In this document: positions 2,895-37,008 of the stretch, piece after piece
Layout of the letters: every line of letters starts with the position of its first letter
Numbering within the stretch: position 1 is the stretch's first letter
Source: Siphonodentalium dalli
Lineage: Eukaryota; Mollusca; Scaphopoda; Gadilida; Siphonodentaliidae
Assembly: GCA_032622095.1 (NCBI GenBank)
Contig: CP136061.1
Span: forward strand, 88,218,983 to 88,282,982
Length of the DNA stretch: 64,000 bases
Direction: 5' to 3'
Notes under the pieces: generated by a model
What the model was told of the DNA's origin: nothing
What the model saw: the letters and a program-made list of their open reading frames with translations, nothing else
Databases searched by the model: none
Translations under genes and position numbers: made by a program

Positions 2895-3960
2895 TCACAA
2901 ATATTGTTTGGTGGCTGTTAGTGTTAATTGTCTCTCATTAAGCATCTGGTCAAAGTTTGATAGCTCACATATGAACCTCTCTTTCTGAGAGTCGAAACGT
3001 TGGAGAGACTTTTGCGATTTTTGTTCCGAAGCAACAGGCGATTTTTGTTGTGGAGCAACAGCATCAACACGAATAGACTGTGTAGCAGTAACTGGCTTAA
3101 CTTGAGTGGTTTGTTTTGCAGCAACGGGTGATTCTTCAGTAGATGTTTCAATGTCCTGTGATACATGTGATGGCACAAGGATTATATCAGATACTTCAAG
3201 TCATTATTGATACACGAATAATGTTGGTCTGACTGTTGTCTGTCTGAGTGCTGGCATCAACACAACTTTGGCAGACCCGATCGTTGATTATGCGACCTGT
3301 GGAATGGATGGTCGATGTCCAACTATTTTCTTAGCATCTATATATGACATATGCTTCTCAGCTTTACATCGTTGAATCTTGAATTCATAATCTCAATTGG
3401 GATATGAACGATCCATTGCAGCATGTGAACCTTGAGAGATTTAACATTTTTAAAGATTCGTACAATCCTTATGGTCATGACCAGAAATAGAACATCGTGC
3501 ACATATGGTTTATGTCCTTTTCCAATGTTCCTGGCCATGACCATACCCCTGACATTTAAAACATCGCAATTGGTTTGGAACCTGTGTGCTTAAATCCATC
3601 TTCATGTACCATGCTCCCATGGATGCTCGCACCCACTGAAGGTCAAACGGTCAAAGGTCAAAATCTAACTCCCTGTAGTGCTAACAATATCTCTGACACA
3701 GAAGAATAAGCTATATCACCAGTCTCAACACAGCTCTGCTACTGTTCAATGTCTTGTGAGGAGTAATCAACACTGCTGTTTGTGCAATAGATTTTAATTG
3801 CATAAGAACGTTAGCTTGAAATTTTCTTGAATATTCTATCAGAAGATAGCCACTTAGTGGCCCAGTCCTGAATCCTGATCTGTTTGACAAATTTTAATTG
3901 TCCGGCTATGCTTTGTAACGTTTTATCAATCACAAATACAGAAGGTCTCGTGACATTCGG
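2895..3960 (-). pseudogene. Decayed non-LTR retrotransposon (LINE) ORF1 with CCHC zinc knuckles
   Basis: Read on the minus strand, three blocks are in the order expected for the gag-like ORF1 of Jockey/CR1-type LINEs. An N-terminal block near 3,820-3,950 contains FVIDKTLQSIAGQLKFVKQ, which matches the known 'I.K.L..IAG..KSVK.LRSGDLL' pattern. A zinc-knuckle block near 3,440-3,590 reads CFKCQGYGHGQEHW, with the last Cys lost, then CARCSISGHDHKDC, a complete CX2CX4HX4C. A post-knuckle block contains AEKHMSYIDAKKIV and a Gln/Ser/Thr-rich C-terminal tail ends at 2895. Frames change several times between blocks (for example between 3,340 and 3,180) and in-frame stops interrupt the knuckle region. 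It is an inactive copy; ORF2 is not present downstream. Confidence 0.8.
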
Positions 3961-6181: not shown

Positions 6182-6226
6182 AACAGCGAGGTGGTAGCAC
6201 AGTTCAAACAACTGCAAATAAATTAC
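6182..6226 (-). repeat. Partial tandem copy of the TPR exon start and its acceptor
   Basis: Positions 6182-6226 repeat 6131-6175 with about eight differences. The copy includes an upstream acceptor (ATTTGCAG) and the first 10 codons of the exon (LFELCYHLAV). Translation then runs into stops before reaching the true exon. It is either an erosion product of local duplication or a decoy 3' splice site. Confidence 0.6.
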
Positions 6227-10560: not shown

Positions 10561-10682
10561 AGTGTCAATGACACTGTAGCTCAAATTGGAAAGGGAATAA
10601 TTTAATGTATTACAGTCAATGGAGCGATTATGAATGTGGAAAGTTGAATGTATAATACTAGTTTATAGACATGAAGAGAAAA

Positions 10683-11640
10683 GTAAAATCCAAGATGGCT
10701 GCTGACGGCCATGTCTTCGGCCGAATGACCCCAAAATGATTGTATCCCATCCGCATGTCATCGTTAACATCCATGACAAATTTTATGACGATCAGACTAA
10801 AGGTACGACCTGTAGCCCATGCTAAAGAATTTAGTCATACAAAGAGTAAAATCCAAGATGGCTGCTGGCGGCCATGCTTTTTGGACAAATGACCCCAAAA
10901 TGACTCGTTCCCATCTACATGTCATTGCTAACATCCATGACAAATTTTATGATGATCAGACTAAAGGTACGACCTGTAGCCCGTGCTAAAGAATTTAGTC
11001 ATACAAAGAGTAAAATCCAAGATGGCTGCAGCGGTCATGTTTTTTGGCCGAATGACCCCAAAATTAATCGTTCCCATCTACATGTCAATATTAACATCCA
11101 TGATAAATTTTATGATGATCAGACGAACAGTACAACCTGTAGCCTGTGCTAATGGATTGAATTTTGAAATCAAAGATGGCCACTGGCGGCCATGTTTTTC
11201 ATCCAAATGACCCCAAAATGACTCGTTCCCATCTAGATTCCAATTTCAACAGCCACGAAAAATTTCATGATGATCAGACTCAAGGTACGACCTGTAGTCC
11301 GTGCTAAAGGATTTAGTCATACAAAGAGTAAAATCCAAGATGGCTTCTGGTGGCCATGTTTTTTTTGGCCAAATGACCCCAACATTACTCGTTCCCATCT
11401 ACATGTCAATATTAACATCCATGACAAATTTCATGACAATAAGACGAACGGTACAGCCTGTAGCCCGTGATAATGGATTGAATTTTGAAATCCAAGATGG
11501 CCACTGGCGGCCATATTTTTTTTCCGAATGACCCCAAAATGACTCGTTCCCATCTACATGTCAATGTCAACATCCAGGACAAATTTCATAATAATCGGAC
11601 AAAGGTACGAACTGTAGCCCGTGCTAAAGGAAATTGTTGA
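10683..11640. repeat. Tandem array of repeat E, six units of about 160 bp
   Basis: Units start near 10683, 10845, 11009, 11161, 11325 and 11481, each with CCAAGATGGC, AATGACCCCAAAATGA, CGTTCCCATCTACATGTCA and TGATGATCAGACT. Two subtypes occur (AAAGAGTAAAATCC and TTGAATTTTGAAATC starts), and they alternate in the right half. The array ends in a GACGCATCACGCACACACGG segment and CAATAGCTCAA, a combination I associate with repeats in molluscan genomes. The overlapping 60-77 aa frames are periodic artefacts of the array. Confidence 0.85.
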
Positions 11641-16867: not shown

Positions 16868-17122
16868 GCTTTTCATGTTTATGAGAATTCAATTAATCAG
16901 TGGCATGGTTCAGTTGTGTAATATATACAGGAATGAGTTAAATGTTATTGAAGAATGATGACACTTTTAGCATATTGGGTATTTACATGTAGTAGTTGCG
17001 AAATCTGTAATGCATGATACTTAATTATCTTGGACCTTTATTAAATAATTGAGGAGTCGTGGGTGGATCAATGATGATCACATTCATCGTAAATTCAACA
17101 AGAGTACTTATAGCATGAAATA

Positions 17123-17954
17123 TATGGGAGGCCCTTTTCACATTTATTATTTATTTGCGCTTAAGCGCAAATATTTACGCTTAAGCGCAAATATTTGCGC
17201 TTAAGCGCAAATAACCTCTATCATTTGCGCTTAAGCACAAATCATTTTCGCTTAAGCGCAAATACAAATTAATATTCATTGATTCCCCCCTGAATTAATT
17301 TTAAATGGCACAGGCCTAAACACATCACTCAAGTCTATATTGGCCCACCATATGAGGGAAGCAATCCCCCAGTAACCCCTAGATCCCTTTTATGACATGG
17401 AAATGGTATAGATCTGTGCAGGATATGTCTCATTTATAAAATATACTTGATCTCTGTGATGGAGACACACATTCTTGGGGACAGGGATGCTGATAATATG
17501 AAAATAGGGTTTTTCCCCCTATTTCAAGTCAATAAGTACACCATATGGAGGAAGCAAGCCCCCCGGTAACCCCTAATTCCCTTTTTATGGCCATGGAAAT
17601 GGTATATATCTGTGCAGGAGATATCTCTTTAAAAAATATACTAGAGCTCTTGGAGTGAGACACCAATTCCTGGGACACCAGGGACAGAGATGCTGATATG
17701 CATATGGAAATCTATGTTTTTTCTTCAACTTCGAGTCTGTATGGGGCTATTACTATGGGCCCATTATAATATACTATGAGATGGACTCAATCATTCACAA
17801 TCAGAGGGAAGGAAGGGAGTGTTAGGTATTTGCGCTTAAGCGCAAATGATTTGCGCTTAAGCGCAAATAAATTGATAGACACATATTTGCGCTTAAGCGC
17901 AAATATTTGCGCTTAAGCGCAAATAAATAATAAATGTGAAAAGGGCCTCCCATA
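17123..17954 (+). mobile_element. Element D, copy 1: palindrome-array transposon with 6-bp target duplication
   Basis: The termini TATGGGAGGCCC and GGGCCTCCCATA continue inward for about 40 bp of near-perfect inverted repeat. Each end carries an array of the palindrome TTTGCGCTTAAGCGCAAA (five copies left, four right, some degenerate). The element is flanked by GAAATA on both sides (17,117-17,122 and 17,955-17,960), a clean 6-bp duplication. The centre contains two tandem copies of about 190 bp sharing ATGGAAATGGTATAKATCTG. There is no coding capacity. Termini beginning TAY and 6-bp duplications are, from memory, reported for the IS3EU superfamily; this is a suggestion only. Confidence 0.85.
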
Positions 17955-18122
17955 GAAATAAGCCTTGCTAATTTACCCAAAGAGGATGGTATTATGCCCC
18001 GTAGTCTATCTGATAAATTATTTGTATAATGATATTTGTTATGGGGGAAACAGGAAGACAGCCCGGTAGGGCTATGTTCCCCCCAGCAATATACTGAATT
18101 ATTCTAGTTATATGTTAATTTA

Positions 18123-33610: not shown

Positions 33611-34878
33611 ATATTGGCAATGTTATGACGCGGACACACGGATTGACACATGTTGATTACAATAATCCTGTACGATTGTTTTCGGAGGACAAAAAAAAAG
33701 AAATGCCGATTAACAAACTTGGTATTAAAAGGAAGCTTAGCATCTATTTCACAATATAAAAGTATATATTCGAGCGAAGCGGCTATGTTGTGCATATACA
33801 GAGCGGTTAACCCACCCATGCGAACGTACCACGGGAAATGGAAAGTTTCCTTCGACATCAATGTTTAGAATAAGATTTCCTCCATGCATATGCTGGCAAA
33901 CATCGCTTGAATGTGTATTAAATGATGCAGCGGAAGCTTATTTATGGAATCATATTACGGCCACTTGCTAATGGCGCTTTCGGCGCACTTTATGTCGCTT
34001 TGGGCGCGATGCGCCGAAAGCGCCGAAAGCGACAAAATGTGCGCCATTAGCGTTGTTTCGGCGCGCGCCGAAAGCGATAAAATATGCGCCAATACGGCGC
34101 ACTTTTTGTCGCTTTCGGCGCGATGCGCCGAAAGCGACAAAAAGTGCGCCATTAGCGCATTCGGCGCGGTGCGCCATTAGTGCATTCGGCGCGGTGCGCC
34201 ATTAGAGCATTCGGCGCGGTGCGCCATTAGCGCATTCGGCGCGGTGCGCCATTAGCGCATTCGGCGCGGTGCGCCATTAGCGTGGTGCGCCGAAAGCGAC
34301 AAAATATGCGCCATTAGCGCATGTACAATTAAGTATGTGATCACACCAGCAGGGGTGCCGGAAGAGGGGGGGGGGGGGGCAGCTGATCCCCTGCCCTTGA
34401 CCAAGGGGGCAGGACTTGCCCTTTTTCTGGAGACAGAAAATGCTGTGTTTAATCTCGTGTTTGTATAGCAAAATGTGACTTTTTTGGTCCAAATACCACC
34501 AATTTCACAAGGAATATTAATTTTTTGTCAATTTTATCAAAAAACGGCCATAAAAACCGACAAATACCTTTAAAATAGGGATTTTTGCCACAATGAATTT
34601 ATGGTTGTTTTTCCGAGTTTGCGGAGAAAATGCCCCTTTTTTTGCAGAAAAGTGCCCTTTTTGTAGGCTCTCACCCCCTGCCCTTGGATGCTTCCGGCGC
34701 CCCTGCACCTCAGTGCAGATCGGACATGGCCATATGTACAATGTATAGGCATATGTATCAATTTTAAAAGGGAGGACCTGAATTTTGCTGTAGATAGACC
34801 TCTAAATGCTATAATTTGTCATTATTCAGATTTAAAATTATTGTGGCCGCGTGGTCCTGGTCCCTCCTTTGTGGGCAG

Positions 34879-35134
34879 TTAAAGGTGCTCAATCCGATCA
34901 GACGGTCCTAAGTTACTGGACAATTTGATGGATAACTCTAAAATCTAATACGGACATATTTTGTTGAACAAATAAAAAGTTTTGAGAAAATTGATACCAT
35001 ACATGTAGTTGGTAGTGGTTATCGTTATTTTGTAGAAATGCATAGATTGTGATAATTTACGTGTATTTTGAAGAAATATTGTTGTATCTTGGTGGTATGC
35101 ATGGGGACCGTCTGATCGGATTAAGTACATTTGA
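34879..35134 (-). mobile_element. TTAA-type MITE, family A, copy 3 (short, nested in element I)
   Basis: Starts TTAAAGGTGCTCAATCCG and ends CGGATTAAGTACAT plus TTGA. GATGGATAACTCTAAAA is shared with copy 5. At 256 bp it is an internally deleted copy. Confidence 0.75.
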
Positions 35135-35700
35135 AAGCTGATCATTTATTTTTAAATCTAGGCCTGCATTTGCCTAGGGCTGTATCCCGAGGTGACAGTT
35201 CTGAAAATATCGACCTGCAGAAAGTTTGGCAATTGGTTTTACGTGAATGTTTGGGGTCCATTTGGACATTCCAAGGTGATCTCCGATTCTGTCCGACAAG
35301 GTGGTCTCCGATTCTGCCCGACAAGGTGGTATCCGACTCTGTTTCACGAGATTTCATGGCGATGGTTCTCCTGGCGCAGGACGAATTTACAGAGAAGGTA
35401 TCCATATCCCGTTCCGGTCTTTTATCAAATTGTTCTCCCCATTTCATTGGGAGACTGATAAATTGTACTTTTAATATTTGAGAGTGTGATATTGATGTTC
35501 TCACTTGTTTCGCCAAAAAGATCCAGCCTGCATTTACCTGAATTTACTAGACTTTCTTTTTTACTACCATTATTTTATATACCCAATAATGGGTGCTCCT
35601 CACCTAAAGGAGGGAATTCCACAACAAGCAAGAAAGCATCTTGACTGTATTAGTAACAACACAGGAACCGTTGCTGAGTTACCATCGTAAGATTGGGAAC
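35135..35700. other. Protein-like segment in the core of element I
   Basis: Overlapping frames run on both strands (35,131-35,481 +; 35,142-35,516 -). A later plus-strand piece reads GIPQQARKHLDCISNNTG and ends at ACCATC before GTAAGA, a good donor. A 22-bp unit with TCYGATTCTGYCCGACAAGG is repeated nearly three times at 35,280-35,345. Possibly captured host exons, but no family is recognised. From 35,700 to 36,200 nothing is seen. Confidence 0.25.
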
Positions 35701-37008
35701 TATATATCTGTATATAAGTGCCTTTATTATTAAAATTTTGTTTGAAATTAATTGCAATATTTGTACATGTTGATATTTCACTAATGCAGGTATTGGCAAT
35801 ATCTGGGATTGAATAGGACAAGTGGTTTTTTTGTGTGCTGTCTTTTGTACAGTGCCATCCTCCTTCCCCAAGCCCACCCACCCTCAGTTTATCATTTCTT
35901 GTACGTTTTGCGAAGTTGTGGTGTAAATCTTAAAATGCCGGTTATTTCGTAAAAGTAATATTTAACGAAATAACGGGCATCTTCGAGTTATTTCTCACTT
36001 CAAAACATAAACATTGTATCAAATCCCATACCATGCCCGTTAATCACTCTAGTCATTCTTTTATCTCACTGTGGGCAGTAAATCCCAGATGTGGGTGTCA
36101 GTAAACTAAATCACACATCGGGCTATAACAGTCACAGTTTTCCATACCAGGGGTAGTCTAATTAAAAGTAGTCAATTTATAAGTTATTCATGTAACGACC
36201 AATGCCGTGACACTGACAGAAAAATTAATATTCCTTGTGAAATTGGTGGTATTTGGACCAAAAAAGTCACATTTTGCTATAAAAACACGAGATTAAACAC
36301 AGCATTTTCTGTCTCCAGAAAAAGGGCAAGTCCTGCCCCCTTGGTCAAGGGCAGACGATCAGCTGCCCCCTCTGCCCCCTCTTCCGGCACCCCCTGCTGG
36401 TGTGATCACATACTTAATTGTACATGCGCTAATGGCGCATATTTTGTCGCTTTCGGCGCACCAGGCTAATGGCGCACCGCGCCGAATGCGCTAATGGCGC
36501 ACCGTGCCGAATGCGCTAATGGCGCACCGCGCCGAATGCACTAATGGCGCACCGCGCCGAATGCTGTATCGGTGCATATTTTGTCGCTTTCGGCGCACCG
36601 CGCCGAAAGCGCCGAAAGCGACAAAAAGTGCGCCGTAACGGCGCATATTTTGTCGCTTTCGGCGCACCGCGCCGAAAGCGCCGAAAGCGACAAAAAGTGC
36701 GCCGTAACGGCGCGTATTTTGTCGCTTTCGGCGCTTTCGGCGCGCGCCGAAATAACGCTAATGGTGCACATTTTGTCGCTTTCGGCGCACCGCGCCGAAA
36801 GCGCCGAAAGCGCCGAAAGCGCCGAAAGCGCCGAAAGCGCCGAAAGCGACAAATAGTGCGCCGTTACGGCGCACTTTTTGTCGCTTTCGGCGCTTTCGGC
36901 GCGTTACTAATGGCGCACTTTTTGTCGCTTTCGGCGCTTTCGGCGCGATGCGCCGAAAGCGCCGAAAGCGCCATTAGCAAGTGGCCGTAATAGGATTCCA
37001 TACTTATT

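Follow-up and report, generated by a model that had tools for sequence, protein, structure and literature searches.

Introduction

IS3EU is a little-studied eukaryotic superfamily of transposons related to the bacterial IS3 and IS481 elements. According to the sections available of two reports, its members have TA..TA ends and a target site duplication (TSD) of usually 6 bp (PMC10045372), and those of rust fungi carry TAYGG..CCRTA ends (PMC12730594). Subterminal tandem arrays find no mention in the portions of the IS3EU literature examined, although they may exist in print. Long inverted ends with tandem repeats inside are, in the accessible text, a feature of Tetris and DAIBAM, non-autonomous foldback elements of Drosophila virilis, where a short relative sharing the tips is also described; the repeats in the terminal inverted repeats (TIRs) of Tetris are about 220 bp long (PMC4079207). 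Among bacterial elements, the parts of the literature at hand describe, for IS2 of the IS3 family, junctions with a 1- or 2-bp spacer in a ratio of 90:10 (PMC3299598) and, for IS30, the joining of ends of two different copies and insertion beside its own ends (PMC9333248). The composite-like eukaryotic transposons of KolobokP form multimers with changes in their flanks, which the authors of that work, as far as its available text goes, compare with the copy-out of IS3 and IS256; they differ from the elements considered here in superfamily and in end structure.

Here we describe a 3,060-bp element within the window, by which we mean the whole 64-kb stretch of DNA that was analysed (Table 1). 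It is one copy of a real, very young and abundant transposon family, and its termini, TSD length and architecture place it probably in IS3EU, from which it differs in that five frames of this copy encode no recognised transposase. The family is thus of a known kind, and its end architecture recurs in sister families. It shares with Tetris and DAIBAM the long inverted ends with tandem repeats, the lack of autonomy and the existence of short relatives with common tips, whereas its units measure 9–69 bp, are partly self-complementary and lie within ends and TSDs of the IS3EU type. It may share with IS2 and IS30 abutted ends with a short spacer and the joining of two different copies, although here these are genomic remains only and the TSD is 6 bp. 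A very young family in a chromosome-scale genome, arrays at five to six of the eight transposase loci sampled and the traces of ends abutted over 1 bp allow two points to be tested, namely whether such arrays govern the specificity and regulation of a transposase and whether IS3 copy-out survived in eukaryotes.

Table 1. Positions in the window of the two IS3EU-type elements and of their parts
Feature	Position	Strand	Remarks
Non-autonomous IS3EU-type element, whole	33943..37002	.	3,060 bp; from termini, TSD, genome copies and window scan
TSD copy CTTATT, left	33937..33942	.	6 bp
TSD copy CTTATT, right	37003..37008	.	6 bp
Left TIR, TATGGAATC...	33943..33986	+	98% complementary to right TIR
Right TIR, ...GATTCCATA	36959..37002	-	98% complementary to left TIR
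Left subterminal array, units GCGCCGAAA(GCGACAAAA) and GTGCGCCATTAGCGCATTCGGCGCG	33974..34321	.	outer limits by eye
Left array, tandem 25-bp part, unit GTGCGCCATTAGCGCATTCGGCGCG	34144-34282		within left subterminal array
Left inverted arm, inner non-array part	34322..34525	+	34352-34525 97% complementary to 36220-36393
Core between arms	34526..36219	.	5 tested frames without Pfam match
Right inverted arm, inner non-array part	36220..36423	-	complementarity to left arm
Right subterminal array	36424..36978	.	outer limits by eye
Right array, 25-bp part, complement of GTGCGCCATTAGCGCATTCGGCGCG	36465-36564		within right subterminal array
Right array, 69-bp higher-order unit	36566-36734		within right subterminal array
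Right array, (GCGCCGAAA)6.3	36792-36848		within right subterminal array; TRF
Second IS3EU-type element, TATGGGAGGCCC ends	17123..17954	.	832 bp; TSD GAAATA at 17117-17122 and 17955-17960

The element and its arrays

A sequence-only reading of this DNA had proposed a 3.06-kb transposon with an intact 6-bp duplication and inverted arms of about 590 and 800 bp. The proposal holds: the TSD pair is perfect (6/6), and the arms measure about 583 bp on the left and 783 bp on the right. The outer 44 nt of the two ends are 98% complementary, and the termini, TATGG..CCATA, carry both the TA..TA ends of IS3EU and the TAYGG..CCRTA signature described for rust fungi, while the long inverted ends with tandem repeats inside have the structure of a foldback element. 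When the window was scanned for an exact 6-bp TSD, TAYGG..CCRTA termini and a TIR match of at least 10/16, two places emerged, this element and the one at 17123–17954, with TIR identities of 15/16 and 16/16; in a Markov-simulated control at the same threshold, 3 of 20 windows contained one match.

The arrays had been described as built from a unit of 9–18 bp. Periods of 9 and 18 bp are indeed present, but they stand beside others, autocorrelation giving 25, 50, 9 and 75 bp on the left and 9, 69, 18 and 25 bp on the right. The run said to occupy only the right arm, at 36,790–36,850, was recovered by TRF as a tandem array of GCGCCGAAA, the like of which was not found in the left arm. Across family loci of 2.7–4.0 kb (one of them compound), the copy number of GCGCCGAAA or its complement ranges from 14 to 49. 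A comparison of CpG among array units was set aside, being confounded by the overlap of the 9-mer and the 18-mer.

Five frames of 94–133 aa from the core and the inner arms gave no Pfam match; frames within the arrays reach 156 aa, and the Pfam search took in those of the core and inner arms.

Copy number, target site duplications and age

In the genome searched, 2.23 Gb in nine contigs, the terminal 22-mer occurs at up to two mismatches 1339 times in forward and 1353 times in reverse orientation, and not once in a reversed control. The two arms occur together elsewhere, as the sequence-only reading expected of a genuine element: among the matches listed, at least seven besides the window copy start in the left arm and extend at least as far as query position 3066, while others fall only slightly short of this. 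Family members range in size from 114 bp to more than 3 kb and have the ends and the units in common at all sizes.

For the TSDs we compared 35 loci, namely 20 long copies, 14 loci on C1 and C2 chosen by exact pairs of termini, and the window copy. Both ends are present in 33 of these, the two loci with one recognised end (L016, L026) standing outside the TSD counts and the compound loci L013, L023, L060 and L064 being kept within them. An exact 6-bp TSD flanks 17 of the 33, all 17 different, and a further 4 of the 33 match at 5/6 in register, in keeping with the 6 bp usual in IS3EU and with the expectation that other copies would bear other 6-bp duplications. Five more have a TSD with 4–5 extra bases on one side, at 6/6 (L011, L058, L062) or at 5/6 (L017, L019), and in 7 of the 33 end pairs (L013, L014, L015, L023, L056, L060, L064) none was found at any offset tried. 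The cores of 16 copies differ by just 0.2–0.9% from the majority sequence that these copies themselves form (16 of 21 long loci, with L013, L023, L026, L027 and L028 left out), so the burst of the family is recent, and age therefore hardly explains the missing TSDs.

Matching empty sites for the CTTATT flanks had also been named as support for the boundaries, and one paralogous site was found, at C4:176892418-176892587, where positions 33–192 of the joined flanks, with the junction at 123, align at 73% identity; other places match one of the joined flanks, or both as separate pieces. One copy (L059) has inserted in array sequence, with ATATTT duplicated.

IS3EU-like transposases in the genome

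The sequence-only reading had hoped for a larger, transposase-bearing relative; no copy encoding a transposase between the family's own ends was found among the first 100 termini listed or at seven loci with matches to the Pfam rva_4 model. At these seven loci, a search for the family TIR near the rva_4 genes at up to six mismatches gave nothing convincing: L070 has nearby only a diverged 282-bp family copy, and the TIR matches at L067 and L051 look like chance.

The rva_4 model, which we take to be a marker of IS3EU transposases, gave 126 scored matches in the genome, fragments counted apart. When four rva_4 proteins were compared with NCBIfam models, two matched that of IS3 (L067 at 4.7e-8, L070 at 4.6e-7) and all four that of IS481 (2.2e-5 to 7.9e-4), in both cases below the curated cut-offs; such weak matches to bacterial models, together with the termini, suggest the link between rva_4 and IS3EU. 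Across seven aligned rva_4 frames, D192 and E233 (L070 numbering) are invariant and a WHxD motif is present in six, being absent from L049, and these would be the catalytic residues. An AlphaFold model built from alignment A1 is poor in the catalytic part, with a mean pLDDT of 51.7.

An approach through the IS481 profile was abandoned as a source of transposases, five of the six loci inspected (out of 20) containing retroelement polyprotein frames (L030, L031, L033, L034, L037) that are presumably of the Gypsy type. L035 has no such frame, and its + strand translation contains stops; near its integrase-like match lies a frame at 105–1331 (−), which by eye, and from its motif, resembles an OTU-type protease.

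Arrays at the transposase loci

Eight rva_4 loci (L049, L050, L051, L066–L070) had been sampled before arrays were looked for. Five of the eight (L050, L066, L067, L069, L070) have a tandem array with a score above 800 some 70–370 bp upstream of the transposase frame, the distance in L050 being measured from an adjoining N-terminal-like frame. The TRF period is 20–23 in four of these, and the period of 43 in L066 is a pair of 21.5-mers. L068 has weaker, palindromic 22-bp arrays on both sides, and L049 and L051 have no comparable tandem array. The units are unrelated between loci, each having its own; they are clearly self-complementary in three of the six array-bearing loci, and those of L050 and L069 are not palindromic. 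Other tandem arrays are present too in L050 and L067 (periods of 37, 390 and 73 bp). No array of period 18–25 scoring 500 or more was found in the 64-kb window or in the 20 loci retrieved with the IS481 profile.

In five of the six array-bearing loci (L066–L070, not L050), TAYGG is found at most about 40 bp beyond the outer edge of the array, the point being marked in L068–L070 by the 5-base motif. At L066 the match of three long copies also ends at this point, and the flank of L072 differs there; at L067 the point coincides with the border of a 73-bp satellite, of which 33 copies (1–2412) stop exactly at the TATGG end of the IS3EU-like element. A right end for L067 guessed at 6201 falls inside an apparent coding exon, and a pattern search for right end and flank gave no fitting place.

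What the arrays may do

We consider it likely that the element represents a young, high-copy, non-autonomous IS3EU-type family moved in trans by a DDE transposase, and that its arrays are multi-site binding regions for that enzyme. A transposase made elsewhere in the genome, perhaps one of the rva_4 kind, would recognise the TATGG..CCATA ends, move the element and leave 6-bp TSDs. The arrays probably bind its N-terminal helical part, so that many protomers would be loaded near the ends, and where an array lies upstream of the gene, as at the transposase loci, it might also act as an operator. From the families sampled, array copy number would change fast while the termini stay fixed, giving rise to related families with units of their own. 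An array that loads transposase or serves as operator fits the observations because the spacing is close to two helical turns, self-complementary units are present at three of six loci as well as in the window's second element, and the arrays lie between end and gene; the proposal that transposase binds at many sites gains from the arrays at IS3EU-like transposase loci.

It is also possible, though rather unlikely in our view, that the arrays have no function and are minisatellites that grow by slippage or unequal exchange while riding in the ends, as in foldback elements. The varying copy number of GCGCCGAAA, the duplicated array parts suggested in the 832-bp family and, in the available text, the 220-bp tandem repeats in the Tetris TIRs (PMC4079207) speak for this reading. 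However, several families whose units are unrelated have their arrays in the same place, 5′ of the transposase gene, the period of the arrays is near 20–23 bp in five of eight loci, and self-complementarity is found in three of six loci as well as in the second element. Furthermore, a 522-bp member of the family (L055) consists almost purely of array and has an exact 6-bp TSD, which likewise speaks against a lack of function.

Abutted ends and the route of transposition

A search for junctions of exact arms with spacers of 0–20 bp returned six places, with spacers of 1, 1, 1, 1, 12 and 12 bp and none of 6 bp. Those of 1 bp belong to three independent loci (C1, counted twice by recombination, C2 and C6), with C, A and T as spacer bases. 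At C1:252526393-252535245 (L023, L073), three copies abut one another over 1-bp spacers, and the middle copy, e2, is a recombinant hybrid of its two neighbours. The two junctions of the second family, at C3:199357636 and C9:46336693, share one 12-bp spacer. In the five copies with an offset TSD, the bases outside one end are GTATG, GTAT and CATAC where the TSD is 6/6 and ATAT and CTATG where it is 5/6.

These traces bring to mind an IS3-like copy-out and paste-in, in which joined ends with a 1-bp spacer, as a circle or a tandem dimer, would integrate. The 1-bp spacers at three independent loci and the N+TAT(G) outside one end in four of the five offset copies, as if a second TIR followed a 1-bp spacer, are consistent with this route, and both recall IS2 spacers (PMC3299598) and IS30 end-joining (PMC9333248) as far as the sections available describe them. 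Nevertheless, we regard the route as unlikely for the IS3EU elements of this genome. The loci are few and are genomic remains only; the C1 junction is not a simple dimer insertion, because the two elements that it joins are different, with 88.6% identity over 553 bp, and no TSD is seen in the outer flanks; the second family has the 12-bp spacer; and CATAC does not fit N+TAT. The two offset cases at 5/6 (L017, L019) are weak alone, about one chance match at this level being expected over the offsets tried by our own estimate, and L009 and L010 also match at 5/6 at other offsets. Tandem insertion followed by deletion would be an alternative. More unlikely still, in our estimation, is a fuller scheme that couples IS3-like abutted ends and a 1-bp spacer to a private array in each family, made up of binding sites of about 21 bp that are often palindromic and lie next to the ends; this array would load the transposase and also repress its gene, and its fast turnover would split specificity between sister families.

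Superfamily placement and the second element of the window

Polinton/Maverick elements are large and carry polymerase and capsid genes. That the element belongs to them or to another superfamily with 6-bp TSDs is very improbable, for although the available text gives Polintons a TSD of 6 bp (PMC10045372), the element is just 3 kb long, its five frames have neither a recognised gene nor a Pfam match, and its ends are TA..TA as in IS3EU; the IS3EU placement agrees, in addition, with the IS3/IS481-related transposases in the genome.

The second element bears arrays of the palindromic 20-mer ATTTGCGCTTAAGCGCAAAT in both arms and has the same plan as the array-bearing rva_4 loci. At least 22 other full-length matches at 89–96% are found among the matches listed, and match patterns at some of these loci suggest duplicated parts of the array. 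Elsewhere in the window, a tandem array with a period of 155/321 bp and a score of 1296 occupies 10682–11631.
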